A stretch of DNA of 51,599 bases from SAR202 cluster bacterium AG-426-M11 (GTDB lineage Bacteria > Chloroflexota > Dehalococcoidia > Lucifugimonadales > UBA826), in contig QCNV01000008.1 of assembly GCA_003213095.1 (NCBI GenBank), positions 1 through 51,599 on the forward strand, read 5' to 3'. The translations under genes were made by a program, and so were the position numbers. The notes beneath the pieces are model-generated. The model was given only the letters and a program-made list of their open reading frames with translations, ran no database searches and was not told the DNA's origin. Positions 3,223 to 37,187 of the stretch are shown here, one piece after another; the stretch's first letter is position 1; each line of letters starts with the position of its first letter.

Positions 3223-3287
3223 TTAGATGAAATCGCTTGACATGAATGGGTAAAAATTATCAATTTATATAGAATAGTAACTGAGTA

Positions 3288-5738
3288 TTACTTTTCCAGA
3301 ATTTCTAATGAAATCACCTGTTTTTCATACATGGCAGTTATTTCTTCATCAGAGTAGCCCAAGTCTTTTAAAACTTCTTCATTATGTTGACCAAAACAAG
3401 GGCCTGAATTTTGAGGTAAATCTTTTCTTCTTTGCATCCTCCAAGAAGGTCTTGTAGTGAGATGGTATTTTTTTAGTTTATGGAATACTTCAATAAATAA
3501 TTTACGATCTTGAATATGTGGGTCGTTTACTAACAACAAAGGTGAAAATACTGGAGATGCAGGTACTCCTTTAGCTTGAAGAATTTCAGAAATTTCTTCG
3601 GCAGTTCTTTCACTGCACCAATCTTCTAGCTTTTTATCTATCAGTTCAATATTTGATTTTCTTCCTTGGGATGAATTTAGCTCAGGATTGTTAAAATCTG
3701 ATATTTGAACGATTTTTTTAAGTTGTTCCCATTCATTATCGTTTCTACATTCTAAAGCTACCCATCTTTCGTCGATTTCTTCTAATAGATGGCCATCATA
3801 GGAATATATAGGGCGAGGGATTTTATCTGGAATTGTTGCATAAACGTTATGGGGTATAGATGTTGGGTGTTTAAATCCTACTCTGGATTCCATCGGTTGT
3901 TCCAAATACTCAGAAATGACATATTCAGCAATTAGCCCAGTTACTCCATCTCTTTGAGGAATAACTATATAGGTTCCCTCACTAGTTTTTTTTCGATTAA
4001 TCAACCCACAAATTATTGCGGATGCACAAGTTGATCCTGCAATAGGGTCTCCATAAGAAATACCTGACTTATGAGGAGGGCCATTTTCGTATCCTTGAAG
4101 TGCAACAAGTCCTCCCATTTGTTCTATAGTGGGACCGTATCCTATTCTTGAACTGTCTGGGCCAATATGGCCAAATCCGGGCATGGACAAATATATTATA
4201 GAAGGGTTAATTTTTTTGATTTTTTCATAGCCAATTCCGTTACGTTCCGCAACTCCAGAAGACCAGTTTTCTAAAAACACATCAGCCGTTTTTAGCAATC
4301 TTAATAATGCTTCATGCCCTTCAGGAGTTTTGAAATCAATTGTAAGGCTTTTTTTGCCTCGATTATATTCATTGTAGTAAGGAGACAAATTGATTGTTGG
4401 TAAAGCTCCGCCTGAAATTCCTGTTCTTACTGGATCAGGAAATTTTGGACCTTCAATTTTAATTACTTCTGCTCCCATGTCAGCTAAAAATCTCGCTCCA
4501 TATGGGCCAGACCAAACTTGTGTCATGTCTACTACTCTAATGCCTTTGAGAGGAAGATTTAAGGGTTGTTTTTGTTCAGGTACAGAATCAAAAAATAACT
4601 TCCTAGAGCGAATTTCATGGTTATGTTCTCCAATACGGGGTGATGGCAAATAGTTACCTCTGTTTCCGTCAAAAATTATTGGGCCAGATGGTGACGGGTG
4701 AGTCCCAATTTTAGGATTATCGACAAATTTCCAGAAATCTATTGCTTGGTAATGTTCGTTTTGAAGTAATTCTGATGGAGTAGGAATTTTTGCAAAAGGA
4801 GCTCTGAATTGATCTGATTTTTTAAAAATTTCCTCTGAAGGATGTTGTTTTGTATATTCTGGGATTAACTCCATGATTAATTCCGCTGCTTCTTGAGATA
4901 ATGGGGTTGATGAAAACATGTCACTGTTTTTTAATTCGCTCATGTCAATTACATCTAATATAGAGTCTATTTGTCTCCTCATGGCTGCTATCCCAATCCA
5001 TCCGTCAGAAGATTCTTGAACACCCCAATGTCCATTTGCATTATTACCTCTACGTGGAGTGTCTGAATCAAACCATAAGGACATAGGGCCACCCATTTCC
5101 AAGGTCACTGCCTGCACTTCTTGAATTGAAAGATCTATGATATCGCCTACTCCTGAATCTATAGCGGAATAAATGTTGGTTAATAATCCTCCAAAGGCTT
5201 GTATTCCTGATTGTAAATAAGCTTGGTGCCCTACTGGAAGTAATGGTGGCTTGTCTTGATCTCCAGTCATGTGTAATTGACCCCCTGACGCAGAGGAGGT
5301 TAAAGAAGTAGCAATCCAATCTTTTTTCGGTCCAGTTTGGCCGTATGGAGATACTTGTATGACTGAGAGTGAAGGGACATCTTTGATAATAGAGCTTAAA
5401 TTAATTCCTACGTCATTTAAAAATTTTCTAGGATAGCCCTCAATATATCCGTCACTGCTTTTAATTAGATTTTGAATTAATATGATGTCATCTTTGTTAT
5501 TGAAATCTACAGACAATGACTTTTTACCCATTCCTAGATATGCAAATAATATGCTGTCTTCAGGATCATTGCTATTATTTTTCCATGGGGATAAATGTCT
5601 TATGGGGTGACCATTGACTGGTTCTATCGTGATAACTTCAGCACCATATAGGGAAAATAGTTTCCCACAAAAAGCAGATGCTATGTCTGAGGATAGTTCA
5701 ATGATTTTTAATCCATCTAAAATTTGTTGTTGAGTCAT
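3288..5738 (-). CDS. Two-domain CaiB/BaiF CoA-transferase family protein
   Basis: 816 aa; two class III CoA-transferase modules (LKIIELSSDIASAFCGKLFSLYGAEVITIEP and LKGIRVVDMTQVWSGPYGARFLADMGAEVIKIEGP...YNEYNRGKKSLTIDFKTPEG). Confidence 0.9.
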   Translation of the reverse strand: MTQQQILDGLKIIELSSDIASAFCGKLFSLYGAEVITIEPVNGHPIRHLSPWKNNSNDPEDSILFAYLGMGKKSLSVDFNNKDDIILIQNLIKSSDGYIEGYPRKFLNDVGINLSSIIKDVPSLSVIQVSPYGQTGPKKDWIATSLTSSASGGQLHMTGDQDKPPLLPVGHQAYLQSGIQAFGGLLTNIYSAIDSGVGDIIDLSIQEVQAVTLEMGGPMSLWFDSDTPRRGNNANGHWGVQESSDGWIGIAAMRRQIDSILDVIDMSELKNSDMFSSTPLSQEAAELIMELIPEYTKQHPSEEIFKKSDQFRAPFAKIPTPSELLQNEHYQAIDFWKFVDNPKIGTHPSPSGPIIFDGNRGNYLPSPRIGEHNHEIRSRKLFFDSVPEQKQPLNLPLKGIRVVDMTQVWSGPYGARFLADMGAEVIKIEGPKFPDPVRTGISGGALPTINLSPYYNEYNRGKKSLTIDFKTPEGHEALLRLLKTADVFLENWSSGVAERNGIGYEKIKKINPSIIYLSMPGFGHIGPDSSRIGYGPTIEQMGGLVALQGYENGPPHKSGISYGDPIAGSTCASAIICGLINRKKTSEGTYIVIPQRDGVTGLIAEYVISEYLEQPMESRVGFKHPTSIPHNVYATIPDKIPRPIYSYDGHLLEEIDERWVALECRNDNEWEQLKKIVQISDFNNPELNSSQGRKSNIELIDKKLEDWCSERTAEEISEILQAKGVPASPVFSPLLLVNDPHIQDRKLFIEVFHKLKKYHLTTRPSWRMQRRKDLPQNSGPCFGQHNEEVLKDLGYSDEEITAMYEKQVISLEILEK

Positions 5739-25735: not shown

Positions 25736-25764
25736 TTGACTTTAATGCCAGTATTAAATATATT
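25736..25764 (+). promoter_or_regulatory. Sigma70-like promoter TTGACT-17 nt-TATATT upstream of thi operon
   Basis: TTGACT 25736-25741, 17-nt spacer, TATATT 25759-25764, immediately before the TPP aptamer. Confidence 0.55.
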
Positions 25765-25770
25765 TTGTTC

Positions 25771-25854
25771 ATGGGGAGCTCAGAGCTGAGAGGGTAAATT
25801 GTACCGACCCAAAACCTGAACTGGATAATGCCAGCGTAGGGATTATTCCCCTAC
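25771..25854 (+). promoter_or_regulatory. TPP riboswitch (THI element) with downstream alternative hairpin
   Basis: ATGGGGAGCTCAGAGCTGAGAGGGTAAATTGTACCGACCCAAAACCTGAACTGGATAATGCCAGCGTAGGGA matches the conserved THI boxes (CTGAGAG, ACCTGA-CTGGATAATGCCAGCGTAGGGA); followed by thiG. Confidence 0.93.
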
Positions 25855-25877
25855 TTTAACAAATTTGAGGATTTATT

Positions 25878-32483: not shown

Positions 32484-33743
32484 ATGGCCAAAGATACTCA
32501 AATTGGTGGAATGTCTGTTGAAAAGCTAAATTATATTGATAAATTTCTTCAAGAAAATTATTTAGATACCAATAAACTGAATGGATTTGTAACAGGCATA
32601 TTTAGAAAAAGAAAAGTAGTTCATTCATCTGCTTTAGGTTTTATGGATAAAGAATTGAAGAAACCCATGAATCTAGATACTATTTTTCGGATTTATTCGA
32701 TGACAAAACCCATTACATCAGTTGCTTTGATGCAATTATACGAAAAGGGTTTATTTCAATTAGATGATCCAGTTTCCAAATATATAGAAGAGTTTGATAA
32801 TTTAAAAGTTTATGTTTCTGGAGATCAAAAGCATTTTGTTACTCAAGATACTATTAGACGTATGACTATTCATGATCTTTTAACTCATCAAGCTGGTTTT
32901 ACCTATGGTCTAACACGAATCACTGAAGTTGATGCGGCATATCAAGATTTAGGGTTGGTTTTTTCTGATGCCCCAATGCAGGAAAAAATTAAATTATTAA
33001 CCCAGTTGCCCTTAGAATTCCAGCCTGGAAGCCATTGGAATTATTCGGTTGCTACAGATGTTTGTGGTTATCTGATAGAGCTATTGTCTGGTAAGTCATT
33101 AGATCAATATTTTTTAGATCAAATTTTTGATCCTTTAAATATGGTGGATACTTCTTTTCATGTTTCTGACACTAAAATAGATCGCTTAGCCACAAATTAT
33201 GAATTTCAACCATTTGGGCCTCCTATTAGGACTGACAATCCAATTTATGGGAACTTCACTTCCCCTCCACAGTTTCTGTCAGGGGGAGCAGGTTTATTAT
33301 CAACATTCGATGATTATTTACATTTTTGCCAAATGATTCTAAATAAGGGGATATACAAAGGTAATCGAATATTGAGTAGAAAAACTATCGAATTAATGAG
33401 TCAAAATCATTTGATTGATAAGACTGATCCAAATTCTCAATTATTGTGGTCAAATAGTGATTTGCGAGAAAGAGGATTTTCTGGTGGAAGTGATGATAGA
33501 TATTTTTGGAATCAAGGTGGAGTAGGTTTTGGCTTAGGTTTTTCTGTGTTGATTAACCCTGCAACTTCTCAATCATCGGGAAGTGTTGGTGAATTATCAT
33601 GGGGAGGATGGGCTAGTACGACTTTTTGGATTGATCCTATAGAAGATTTAATAGTGATATTTTTGACCCAGTTATTGCCGTCTGATTCATATAATGTACG
33701 TAAAGAGCTTAAATCTTTGGTGTATTCAGCTATAGAAGATTGA
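32484..33743 (+). CDS. Beta-lactamase-fold serine hydrolase
   Basis: IFRIYSMTKPITSVALMQLYEKG (SxxK), HDLLTHQAGFTYG, WNYSVATDVCGYLIELLSGKSLDQY (YxV/YSN-like). Confidence 0.9.
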   Translation: MAKDTQIGGMSVEKLNYIDKFLQENYLDTNKLNGFVTGIFRKRKVVHSSALGFMDKELKKPMNLDTIFRIYSMTKPITSVALMQLYEKGLFQLDDPVSKYIEEFDNLKVYVSGDQKHFVTQDTIRRMTIHDLLTHQAGFTYGLTRITEVDAAYQDLGLVFSDAPMQEKIKLLTQLPLEFQPGSHWNYSVATDVCGYLIELLSGKSLDQYFLDQIFDPLNMVDTSFHVSDTKIDRLATNYEFQPFGPPIRTDNPIYGNFTSPPQFLSGGAGLLSTFDDYLHFCQMILNKGIYKGNRILSRKTIELMSQNHLIDKTDPNSQLLWSNSDLRERGFSGGSDDRYFWNQGGVGFGLGFSVLINPATSQSSGSVGELSWGGWASTTFWIDPIEDLIVIFLTQLLPSDSYNVRKELKSLVYSAIED

Positions 33744-33747
33744 GACA

Positions 33748-33803
33748 TGGTACCCCAAAGGAACTCGCCTCAGAGATTTATGTGTGAATGGGAATGCATC
33801 TAG
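33748..33803 (-). pseudogene. Strongly decayed tRNA-Glu 3' fragment plus flank (distal boundary of array)
   Basis: tggtaccccaaaggaactcgcctcagagatttatgtgtgaatgggaatgcatctag aligns with 35414-35471 at roughly two-thirds identity by eye with a few single-base gaps. Confidence 0.5.
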
Positions 33804-33892
33804 GGTTATTGTCAGTAAACACATACAATTCAGTACAACCTACAAACATTTCCCTACCCTAAAAACATTACGACAAAACCATACATTTATGT
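33799..33892. repeat. Conserved element end region, copy 1
   Basis: tctagggttattgtcagtaaacacatacaattcagtacaacctac...ccctaccctaaaaacattacgacaaaaccatacatttatgt matches 35467-35575. Confidence 0.8.
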
Positions 33893-34005
33893 CAAATAAG
33901 TTTTACTGTTTTGACATGTTTTATTTTTTTTGTGATATTTTAATTCAAGCTGTTAGATGATTTAGCTTAGAGAAGTTTGAAAGTTTTGAATATAATACTA
34001 GAGTC

Positions 34006-35307
34006 TTGATTAAGAAATTTTTTTTAGTAGATAAGTTCTATTTAACTGCTTTTGCAATATTAATACCCACATCTATTAACTTATCCATCACCCAATTTGT
34101 AACCCCACTCTTAAATGCAATTATGGGAAGGACTGATAATCCTGCAATTTCTATAAGTTCATACTCTATAGCTATTTCAGTTCTTTTTTTGATTGCATTA
34201 CCGAATTTACGAATTCAACATTTAACTATTGTCTACTATAAAAATATTAATAAATTAAAAGTTCATTTCTTCGTAATTTTAATTTCAACAATTTGTTTGT
34301 TTTGTTCAGTATTAATAATTTATACACCCGCTTCTAATATTTTTTTAGAAAAAATATTTTTCACTGAAGGTGATCTTAGGAATAATGTTGAAAAATGTCT
34401 TAAATTAGGATTTTATATCCCATTTTTATTGATAATCAAAATGCATCTTTATGCCGTTGCAATAGTTTCGTCAAAATCTTCTTTGATTTGGGCCGGTACA
34501 ATTTTTGGGTTTATCTGTACTTTTCTTTTAGCAATAATATTTTATTTGATTGGGTTTGAGGGGTTTAGACTTGGAATTTCGGCAGTTGCATATTCTCTAG
34601 CATTAGAAACATTAGCGATATTTATGTTAGTAAGAAATGATTTACTTGATTTCAAGCTCAAATTTACTAGGGATATTTTTATGATAGGTGATTTGTTTAA
34701 GTTTTTCACGCCTTTGTTATTTGCTGCTTTTATACCATCTTTTACCATGCCAGCAATTAATGCAGTCTTAACAAGACTTGATAATCCGGAGGTGTCAATT
34801 TCTGCTGTAAATATTGGGATTGGAATATTTGGAGCAGTCTCATTTGCTATATATGGCTGTCAATCGACAATTTTATCTTTGATGTCAAATGGATATCACT
34901 ATTTTAAGATTAGATATTTTTCTTATTTTGTCAGCTTTTTAACTTTATTTTTATGTAGTTTTATAGCATGGATAAATCCTGTAAATCATTTCATTTTTAA
35001 TACCATATTTAATTTAGATGAAGATTTATATAAAAATACTTTGCTTGTTTTTAGGCTTTTATCTTTTTTGCCTCCCTTTTTAGTTATGGAGCAACTATAC
35101 GTAGGGATTATCATGAACTCAAAATCAACAAATCCAATTATTTATATAAATATTTGTAGGTTTTTAGTTTTAATTATTTTTTTGGGCGCGAGTATATTTT
35201 TGTTGCAAAATGGAGCGCTTGTTGGTGGTCTTGCATGGTCTTTAACTTTATTTTTTGAAGCAATTTTTGCTTGGTTGTTTGGCAAAAATATAAAAAAACC
35301 TGATTAA
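34006..35307 (+). CDS. Polytopic membrane protein, MATE/MOP-exporter-like
   Basis: 433 aa, very hydrophobic, TTG start; two pseudo-repeats NAIMGRTDNPAISISS / NAVLTRLDNPEVSISA typical of duplicated flippase-fold transporters. Confidence 0.6.
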   Translation: MIKKFFLVDKFYLTAFAILIPTSINLSITQFVTPLLNAIMGRTDNPAISISSYSIAISVLFLIALPNLRIQHLTIVYYKNINKLKVHFFVILISTICLFCSVLIIYTPASNIFLEKIFFTEGDLRNNVEKCLKLGFYIPFLLIIKMHLYAVAIVSSKSSLIWAGTIFGFICTFLLAIIFYLIGFEGFRLGISAVAYSLALETLAIFMLVRNDLLDFKLKFTRDIFMIGDLFKFFTPLLFAAFIPSFTMPAINAVLTRLDNPEVSISAVNIGIGIFGAVSFAIYGCQSTILSLMSNGYHYFKIRYFSYFVSFLTLFLCSFIAWINPVNHFIFNTIFNLDEDLYKNTLLVFRLLSFLPPFLVMEQLYVGIIMNSKSTNPIIYINICRFLVLIIFLGASIFLLQNGALVGGLAWSLTLFFEAIFAWLFGKNIKKPD

Positions 35308-35363
35308 ACTACATACAATTATGTGAAATAAGTTTTACCATTTTTTTACCAGTTTTAAGGATG

Positions 35364-35463
35364 TTGAGTGTCCGTCAAAACTACGGCAAACCACTAATTC
35401 GTAGCTAAATTAGTGGTGACCCCAGCAGGATTCGAACCCGCGATTTCCGGCGTGAAAGGGCAG
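35364..35463. repeat. 100-bp direct repeat containing tRNA-Glu 3' half, copy 1
   Basis: Aligns without gaps to 37061-37160 with three mismatches seen. Confidence 0.95.
35414..35463 (-). pseudogene. Truncated tRNA-Glu (3' ~50 nt incl. CCA, T-arm, anticodon loop)
   Basis: tggtgaccccagcaggattcgaacccgcgatttccggcgtgaaagggcag; homology to the intact tRNA stops within the anticodon stem. Confidence 0.92.
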
Positions 35464-35466
35464 AAA

Positions 35467-35575
35467 TCTAGTGTTTTTTGTCAGTAAATACGTGCAATTA
35501 CGTACAACCTACGGACACTTCTAGGCACAAATCCCCTACCCTAAAACCATTACGACAAATTACATACAATTATGT
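35467..35575. repeat. Conserved element end region, copy 2
   Basis: tctagtgttttttgtcagtaaatacgtgcaattacgtacaacctac...ccctaccctaaaaccattacgacaaattacatacaattatgt. Confidence 0.8.
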
Positions 35576-35615
35576 TCGATTATTTTTGCCGTGTTTTTGC
35601 CGTGTTTATTGTTTT

Positions 35616-36983
35616 TTAATCTAACCAAGATTTTACTCCACCATGCCAAGAGCAAGTTCCCCTTCGATTAATACTATAACTATACGTACCATCTTTACAT
35701 ATAGCAGTAGGACTAGAAGGTGGAATCATAATATTAAAGGTAGGTGTTGGAATAGGTAAAAATTTACAGTTACTCCATAATCCTACACCTGATTGTTTTG
35801 CTTCTTGTTGAGCAATTAAATAATCATGTTTACGAGAAAAATCAGATTCAACATAAACTCTTGCCAATCCTCGATGAATTAATTCTAATCCAAAATCTTC
35901 ACCATTATTTTTGATATATCCCAATAATCTTCCATAATATCCCCTAGTTTCGTTTTCTGAATCTAAACTAAGAGATACTGTTTTATAGATTAAATTATCT
36001 ATAGCAAAATCATTTGCTGTTTCAGCAATTTGATCTAAACACGCTGCACTAGCTTGATTATAAAATTTCCTAACATTCTCTTCGTTGCCAGAAATTTCTG
36101 GAGTGTCAACTCCTAATAATCTAATAGTTTCAGTTGATTGATCTGGAAACATTATTTTCATAGTGTCTCCATCTATTACTTTAGAAATAGTCACATTTTT
36201 TTGATTTCTAAAATCTAAATCAAGATTAATTATAGGTTTAGTGGTTGGAGTGTATATCCAAGTATTTTTTGAATATAAGGGCTCTTTAGTGTTATCTGAA
36301 AGTAAAGCAAATTTAATTTCTGTACCGTTAAAGTGTCCATCGGTACCATTTATAAAATTGTTAGAATCTATTTTTACTTCAAAATTATGAAATTCGTTTT
36401 TCCAGTCAACTTCTGTTGTACTTACTGCACTTTTAGAATTTCCAATATAGGCATAAATTTGTTTGTCACATCCCTTTACGCATTTCATACCAGGGCCAGC
36501 GTTTTCTAATGTTTCATAAGACTGATCTATAAATATTTTTCCAGAAAAAACTAGAGGACCTATCACATCATAAATTACCGGTTGGTAAGCAACAGGTGTA
36601 AATGTAGGGATAGGAGTAAATGTAGTGATAGGAGTTGGGGTGGGAGTGAGTAAAGTATTCAAAATACTATTAATATCTACTTTGGAAATTGGTGTAGGTG
36701 TAGGTGTAGGTGTAGGTGTAGGTGTTATGGTTGAAGCGATTATTATAGTCAAAGATTCGTTGATTGAAGCCCTGCGAGTTGCCTTTGCCTTCATAGAAGC
36801 AGTGCTAGTTGCCTTCATAGATGCAGTGAAAGTTGCCAAGTCATTGTCTTTGGTTGCGTTATACAAATTTTTTATTGTTTGATCTGACAGTTGATCAAAC
36901 GCATTTGTACTCGTAGTCGAATTATTACAACCAATGATTACAAAAAGAAATGTAATTAATAAAATTCTTTTAAACTTCTCCAT
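35616..36983 (-). CDS. Lipoprotein with Pro/Thr linker, thermonuclease (SNase-like) domain and C-terminal DUF3761-like domain
   Basis: Lipobox FVIIGCNN; KVIDGDTMKIMFPDQSTETIRLLGVDTPEI, YYGRLLGYI, LIHRGLARVYVESDFSRKHDYLIAQQEAKQSGVGLWS; CKDGTYSYSINRRGTCSWHGGVKSWL. Confidence 0.88.
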   Translation of the reverse strand: MEKFKRILLITFLFVIIGCNNSTTSTNAFDQLSDQTIKNLYNATKDNDLATFTASMKATSTASMKAKATRRASINESLTIIIASTITPTPTPTPTPTPISKVDINSILNTLLTPTPTPITTFTPIPTFTPVAYQPVIYDVIGPLVFSGKIFIDQSYETLENAGPGMKCVKGCDKQIYAYIGNSKSAVSTTEVDWKNEFHNFEVKIDSNNFINGTDGHFNGTEIKFALLSDNTKEPLYSKNTWIYTPTTKPIINLDLDFRNQKNVTISKVIDGDTMKIMFPDQSTETIRLLGVDTPEISGNEENVRKFYNQASAACLDQIAETANDFAIDNLIYKTVSLSLDSENETRGYYGRLLGYIKNNGEDFGLELIHRGLARVYVESDFSRKHDYLIAQQEAKQSGVGLWSNCKFLPIPTPTFNIMIPPSSPTAICKDGTYSYSINRRGTCSWHGGVKSWLD

Positions 36984-37060
36984 TAGTGAATTGTAATAAA
37001 AATCGAATTGATATGAATAGTTGTAAAAATTTTGCCGTGTTTTTGCCGTGTTTTTTAAAA

Positions 37061-37160
37061 TTGAGTGTCCGTCAAAACTACGTCAAACCACTAATTCGTA
37101 GCTAAATTAGTGGTGACCCCAGCGGGATTCGAACCCGCGATTTCCGGCGTGAAAGGCCAG
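37061..37160. repeat. 100-bp direct repeat containing tRNA-Glu 3' half, copy 2
   Basis: Pairs with 35364-35463. Confidence 0.95.
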
Positions 37161-37187
37161 CGTCCTGGACCGCTAGACGATGGGGCC
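37111..37187 (-). tRNA. tRNA-Glu (anticodon TTC), CCA encoded
   Basis: GGCCCCATCGTCTAGCGGTCCAGGACGCTGGCCTTTCACGCCGGAAATCGCGGGTTCGAATCCCGCTGGGGTCACCA folds to a cloverleaf; anticodon loop CTTTCAC. Confidence 0.97.

Follow-up and report, generated by a model that had tools for sequence, protein, structure and literature searches.

Mobile elements that keep attachment sites without an enzyme to act on them form a recognised category. Cis-mobilizable elements (CIMEs) retain both attL and attR, have lost their genes for integration and transfer, and gather by tandem accretion at the 3′ ends of tRNA genes (PMC5704250). The islands at the ssrA locus of Dehalococcoides stack at one RNA gene as well; 15 of 31 have no integration module, and it was proposed that these are CIMEs that move by accretion. 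The target is the tmRNA gene and the recombinase the Ccr-type DsiB, and many of the islands carry several genes (PMC3146451). Here, we analyse a stack of two one-gene units at a tRNA-Glu(UUC) gene of SAR202 cluster bacterium AG-426-M11, located in a stretch of 51,599 nucleotides (contig QCNV01000008.1, henceforth the window). Dehalococcoides and the marine SAR202 bacteria belong to the same class, Dehalococcoidia (Chloroflexota). The window is one contig of a draft assembly of 1.16 Mb in 50 contigs, estimated to be 78% complete.

Several other systems are relevant for comparison. Tycheposons are described as elements of marine streamlined genomes, bordered by tRNA genes, variable in cargo and 4–200 kb in size with a tyrosine recombinase (PMC10872708, PMC11389934). 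Phage satellites of the PICI, PICMI and VEIME types were also compared (PMC10803314, PMC11389934), as were miniature inverted-repeat transposable elements (MITEs) and CALIN cassettes (PMC11389934).

Results

Every part of the two stacked units of about 1.7 kb was found in the place and order that the original prediction, made from the letters of the DNA, had given (Table 1). Measured from anticodon loop to anticodon loop, unit 1 spans 1697 bp and unit 2 spans 1668 bp. Read along the minus strand, the direction of the tRNA, unit 1 is composed of tRNA-Glu, a hairpin, a left core, a repeat pair, the gene of an SNase-domain lipoprotein, an identical repeat pair and a right core. Unit 2 follows with a copy of the tRNA 3′ half, the hairpin, a left core, another repeat pair, a membrane-protein gene, a right end and a decayed tRNA half. 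Such a repeat structure is far beyond chance: a 134-nt repeat of the tRNA/hairpin region is 87% identical without gaps, its tRNA and end portion reaches 97% over 100 nt (E = 4e-43), and the intact tRNA-Glu and its inner copy disagree at one base in 46. Each unit holds a single gene and neither a recombinase nor a mobilization gene. The prediction that no recombinase lies elsewhere in the window also held, the 28 open reading frames scanned besides the cargos looking ordinary chromosomal and having no recombinase domain.

The empty site that the original prediction had called for is present in SAR202 cluster bacterium ALOHA_A2.5_119 (G002; pattern-match contig JAKUTY010000013), a member of the same genus. 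There, the 3′ end of tRNA-Glu runs straight into the end of a gene for a serine hydrolase (beta-lactamase family), the same gene that borders the window stack, so that window position 37109 is joined cleanly to 33743, without the 3.37 kb in between. The hairpin is absent from this empty site and therefore belongs to the element; its interpretation as a native terminator of the tRNA was ruled out on the same ground. An empty site together with a displaced old 3′ half is what site-specific integration into a tRNA gene typically leaves behind, the new 3′ half being supplied by the element. Two further tRNA-Glu loci were set aside. In another genus, the 1.3 kb that separate tRNA-Glu from the following gene proved to be a DEAD-box helicase gene, not an element. 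In G004, likewise a genome from outside the genus, a tetratricopeptide repeat (TPR) lipoprotein frame just downstream of tRNA-Glu (contig C8; L138:5054-5890), whose listed start overlaps the tRNA, does not have the unit ends.

Other cargos between the same ends, likewise anticipated, were found at tRNA-Lys in two genomes. On contig C12 of the window genome (G000), tRNA-Lys(CUU) is followed by a hairpin and an end of kindred type. Next come two genes, for a lipoprotein of 149 aa and a membrane protein of 114 aa, then a right end that shares 97% identity with the unit 1 right end across 106 nt, and lastly a copy of the tRNA-Lys 3′ half. At its syntenic tRNA-Lys locus, G002 combines a tRNA-Lys copy and a right end from this family (85% to unit 1) with a different cargo gene, which is cut by the contig end. 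An empty tRNA-Lys site was not seen, the sister contigs stopping in or beside this locus. Among 250 genomes of the order, the unit ends are present only in G000 and G002. Right-end cores fall into subtype A (unit 1 at tRNA-Glu and the G000 Lys unit) and subtype B (the viral contig described below, carrying the tRNA-Glu site, and the G002 Lys unit). Each subtype thus occurs with each of the two target tRNAs, which indicates either that target core and ends have recombined or that retargeting was repeated. Overall, the arrangement is not one fixed in all relatives, without empty sites or recurrence, the outcome named beforehand as telling against mobility.

A further hotspot of the window genome lies at tRNA-Trp (L018:5266-8930 of contig C12; L116 of contig C44), with a related hairpin (CCAGTCATTTAGCTACGAAATCGACTGG) and 11-bp repeats at +60. 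This hotspot also comprises lipoprotein and TPR cargos, C-terminal remnants of integrases, and a copy of the tRNA-Trp 3′ half that opens contig C44. In addition, serine-hydrolase paralogs of the beta-lactamase family stand outside both the Glu stack (window 32484-33743, adjacent) and the Lys unit (L011:3174-4415, one gene further).

An integrase bordered by the same ends, as the original prediction had hoped for, was found on a viral contig. A search with the right-end pattern matched one IMG/VR contig, IMGVR_UViG_3300030090_005687 (L161; 8416 bp); a second pattern match, to Flavobacteriales (L160), was taken as chance. Positions 6720-7019 of L161 form an intact attP, consisting of a repeat pair, right end, tRNA-Glu 3′ half, hairpin (one end mismatch), left end and the same repeat pair again, and this tRNA-Glu attP matches both unit ends. 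A tyrosine integrase gene lies on one flank (432 aa; PF00589, 2.3e-20; phrog_1, 1.5e-50) and an excisionase-like gene on the other (PHROG excisionase, phrog_1840, 7.4e-8); L161 also encodes a terminase small subunit (terS). Many Streptococcus satellite phages are among the distant relatives matched by the integrase. Overall, the gene set is satellite-like, although the contig could be a fragment. DNA patterns of the Lys and Trp attP had no match in the viral contigs. Elsewhere on L161, positions 3275-3418 are 76-80% identical to the marine phages AG-345-O18 and AG-345-P14, inside a short reading frame containing MEQTIDIYEFLTCDELDQV.

The homology of unit 1 and the Lys unit to L161 ends on one side at the integrase stop codon (TTTTTACAACTA) and on the other, more weakly in the Lys unit, within the final codons of the excisionase-like gene (GATTAAAAAACAATAA). 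Boundaries at these two points indicate that both units come close to an attP plus cargo. Unit 2 is built differently on the left, its repeats there being followed by a right-end-type stretch. This stretch (AACTTATTT.ACATAATTGTATGTA; window 35306-35352, beside the arm repeats) is perhaps a trace of an exchange of ends at cargo capture.

Two tandem 11-bp repeats lie near each element end, about 59 nt past the tRNA, a feature that the original prediction did not describe. The two copies stand about one helical turn apart, as would be expected of the arm-type sites of lambda-type integrases, and look like putative sites of this kind. We distinguish the repeat-pair sequences ACACGGCAAAA (unit 1), TGTGTCCAAAA and AGTAGGCAAAA. 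Within an element, the left and right repeats are identical at 20/20 positions in L161, unit 1 and the Lys unit, while between these three elements 12-14/20 are in common. The left repeats of unit 2 agree with the right repeats of L161 at 19/20, and its right repeats are decayed. Unit 2 therefore falls in the L161 arm class and unit 1 in a different one, pointing to two or more helper integrases.

A comparable spacing was found beside related enzymes. L161-like integrases are encoded in six SAR202 genomes; five of the loci examined adjoin tRNAs, and at three of these five (tRNA-Leu, tRNA-Glu(ctc) and tRNA-Leu(caa)) repeats of period 11 stand 62-64 nt past the tRNA. The corresponding offsets in the window genome are 57 nt at the Lys locus, 60 nt at the Trp locus and 59 nt in unit 1, the last measured separately because the scan demanded all four bases in the repeat and hence skipped this unit. 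None of the approximately 54 other tRNAs examined had period-11 repeats at such a distance, against a background of two clusters in 138 kb.

In the host genomes, the search for a cognate enzyme led to chromosomal genes. The window contig encodes no tyrosine recombinase, and matches in its genome were limited to an XerC-like gene (contig C10) and a C-terminal remnant (contig C12). Candidates from this genome and its genus were rejected as the cognate enzyme, the XerC-like gene standing beside topA and the XerD-like gene beside uvrC, both in chromosomal context. Contig C12 also encodes a 443-aa protein (L018:1281-2612) with the serine-recombinase 'Recombinase' and zinc-ribbon domains and no Pfam match to the catalytic resolvase domain.

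As for the cargos, the best SAR202 relatives of the SNase lipoprotein are about 40% identical, mostly across the SNase domain, and the search for a relative among the viral contigs found none. In the host family, the membrane-protein gene of unit 2, which is convergent to the tRNA as is the integrase gene in L161, was found nowhere else. Two genomes of another SAR202 family have a 56-60% identical gene, in conserved chromosomal context. Cargo 2 is thus consistent with the capture of a host gene. Its predicted MATE-like nature stands as far as a membrane protein is concerned, and the MATE assignment is weak: only the homologs reach Pfam MatE, with a best E of 0.009, below the cut-off. A PDB profile search with this protein gave no match, and AlphaFold without an alignment yielded a pLDDT of 45.

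Elsewhere in the window, a thiamine pyrophosphate (TPP) riboswitch (25762-25859; Rfam, 59 bits) precedes thiG and a thiamine-monophosphate synthase gene.

Table 1. Features of the tRNA-Glu stack, listed in the direction of the tRNA (window positions)
Feature	Position	Strand	Remarks
Intact tRNA-Glu(UUC), integration target	37111..37187	-	3′ half now from unit 1; ARAGORN; Rfam tRNA 63 bits
Hairpin CCACTAATTTAGCTACGAATTAGTGG	37088..37113	-	begins within the tRNA CCA; folds at -10.7 kcal/mol, z -4.9
Unit 1 left-end core GTAGTTTTGACGGACACTCAA	37061..37081	-	common to unit 2, Lys unit and L161 attP
Unit 1 left arm repeats ACACGGCAAAA x2	37030..37051	-	59 nt beyond the tRNA
Cargo 1, SNase-domain lipoprotein, 455 aa	35616..36983	-	Pfam SNase 1.6e-17, DUF3761 1.3e-10
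Unit 1 right arm repeats	35584..35605	-	exactly the left pair
Unit 1 right-end core	35472..35573 (approx.)	-	97% to Lys unit, 88% to L161 attP
tRNA-Glu 3′-half copy separating the units	35414..35459	-	
Hairpin, second copy	35391..35416	-	
Unit 2 left-end core	35364..35384	-	
Unit 2 left arm repeats CTGGTAAAAAAATGGTAAAACTTATTT	35326..35352	-	L161 arm class (19/20 to L161)
Cargo 2, multi-helix membrane protein, 433 aa	34006..35307	+	MATE-like (weak)
Unit 2 right arm repeats	33894..33918	-	L161 class, decayed
Unit 2 right-end core	33805..33890	-	partly decayed
Decayed 3′ half of the original tRNA-Glu; outer boundary	33748..33791	-	aligns with the intact tRNA at the empty site

Discussion

The two units bear the attachment sites of a phage-satellite-like element and so probably travel by borrowing its integrase. 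We favour, with a probability of roughly three in four, the interpretation that they are cargo-only, non-autonomous integrative elements, made of an attP and one gene, which satellite-type integrases move in trans or which move by accretion. In such a scenario, a tyrosine integrase of the L161 kind would recombine attP with the anticodon arm of tRNA-Glu, the 7-nt anticodon loop being the probable overlap and its stem the probable core sites. The tRNA 3′ half of the element would then complete the tRNA, and the old half would come to lie at the opposite end. On either side, the pair of 11-bp repeats would serve the integrase as arm-type sites. Unit 2, of the L161 arm class, would have integrated first, its outer site having since decayed; unit 1, of the other arm class and probably inserted by another integrase, would have come later, its sites being still near-identical. 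Having no integrase of their own, the units might be moved in trans, or in cis by excision with a satellite integrated alongside (accretion), and transfer to other cells might take place inside helper-phage particles. Unit 1, with near-identical cores and both arms whole, looks intact and may be active at present.

Several points weigh against this scenario. The outer att site and right arm of unit 2 are decayed, so unit 2 cannot leave alone. The three genomes of the genus (78, 94 and 97% complete) yielded no intact integrase of the tRNA type, only XerC/XerD-like genes and remnants. Just one viral contig bears the attP; it has no terminal repeat and may therefore be a fragment, which leaves the genes on its 8.4 kb as the ground for calling it a satellite. 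Mobility is here a prediction from sequence, and the genome data are draft assemblies.

Some of the same observations can be turned into another explanation, namely that the units are dead remnants, left when full phage-satellite insertions were stripped by deletion to one accessory gene between att sites, and now immobile. This would fit the genus genomes, in which no such integrase was found, the decay seen in unit 2 (outer tRNA copy, right arm) and the integrase remnants left at tRNA-Trp in the window genome. In two units, however, the deletions would need to have halted at the integrase stop codon and at the C-terminus of the excisionase-like gene. Moreover, the tRNA copy bounding unit 1 differs at only 1 of 46 bases, and the same tRNA-Lys site holds different cargos in sister genomes. 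We therefore consider this explanation unlikely. The original prediction had offered movement in trans and relics as alternatives; these are not mutually exclusive, and unit 2 must be counted as a relic at least in part. A tandem duplication or an assembly error around the tRNA, with both genes being ordinary chromosomal ones, might be suspected in a draft genome with repeats 1.7 kb apart, a spacing at which short-read assembly can err, but it is highly improbable given the clean empty site in G002, the recurrence of the ends around other genes at an unrelated tRNA, the attP beside an integrase on a viral contig, and a cargo 2 foreign to the family.

Taken as non-autonomous elements, the units most resemble CIMEs. 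Unit 1 agrees with their definition in its retained att sites and its lack of integration and transfer genes: attL and attR are both kept, their cores are near-identical and the arms intact. In unit 2, attL is intact and attR decayed. Neither unit has integration or transfer genes, and the tandem stack is consistent with accretion. Unlike CIMEs, the units measure 1.7 kb, contain one gene and end in a nearly precise attP, and their likely helper is an element of the phage-satellite type (terS) rather than an integrative and conjugative element (ICE), L161 resembling neither an ICE nor an integrative and mobilizable element; the arm repeats suggest more than one helper integrase. With the Dehalococcoides islands they share stacking at one RNA gene and integrase-less members, but they target tRNA-Glu and tRNA-Lys, and the linked enzyme is a tyrosine integrase, not DsiB.

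Like tycheposons, the units reside in a marine streamlined genome, are integrated at tRNA genes (tRNA-Glu, tRNA-Lys), appear to depend on tyrosine recombinase chemistry and vary in cargo; they differ in being 1.7 kb long and in that neither encodes a tyrosine recombinase. The likeness to phage satellites lies in L161, with its integrase, excisionase-like and terS genes (part of its open reading frames was scanned, and more genes may lie beyond the contig), whereas the cargo units have none of the three. MITEs and CALIN cassettes also consist of recombination sites without an enzyme, moved by that of a relative, but the unit ends, judged by the attP match, are a tRNA-specific attP found beside a phage-type integrase, not transposase ends or attC.

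The suggestion of an undescribed family has consequently to be toned down, since islands that carry only cargo between att sites already have a name, CIMEs, and Dehalococcoides offers a precedent (PMC3146451). The novelty lies in the one-gene size, the attP-plus-cargo build, the matched arm repeats with their class labels, the SAR202 host and the candidate helper integrase. More tentatively, it is tempting to imagine a MITE-like SAR202 population of modular, one- or two-gene attP cassettes that lives off phage-satellite integrases. Cargo, arm repeats and target-tRNA core would be exchangeable, so that one kind of end might bring any gene into different tRNAs, and a change of the 11-bp repeat might switch the helper integrase. 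We regard this broader picture as possible, though somewhat less probable than not.

Conclusions

SAR202 bacteria, abundant in the dark ocean, are to our knowledge largely uncultured, so that little is known of how they acquire genes, and we found no paper devoted to SAR202 integrative elements in the open-access literature searched. If our interpretation is true, a few hundred bases of attachment site suffice to mobilize one host gene via a foreign integrase, and the units would be near the lower size limit for an integrative element. The combination of a tRNA, about 60 nt and an 11-bp tandem repeat would provide a simple signature for integrase-less islands, which integrase-based island finders are expected to miss. 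The arm repeats, in turn, would be a readable tag tying a cargo unit to its helper integrase, so that pairs of helper and hitcher might be predicted from sequence and searched for in viromes.

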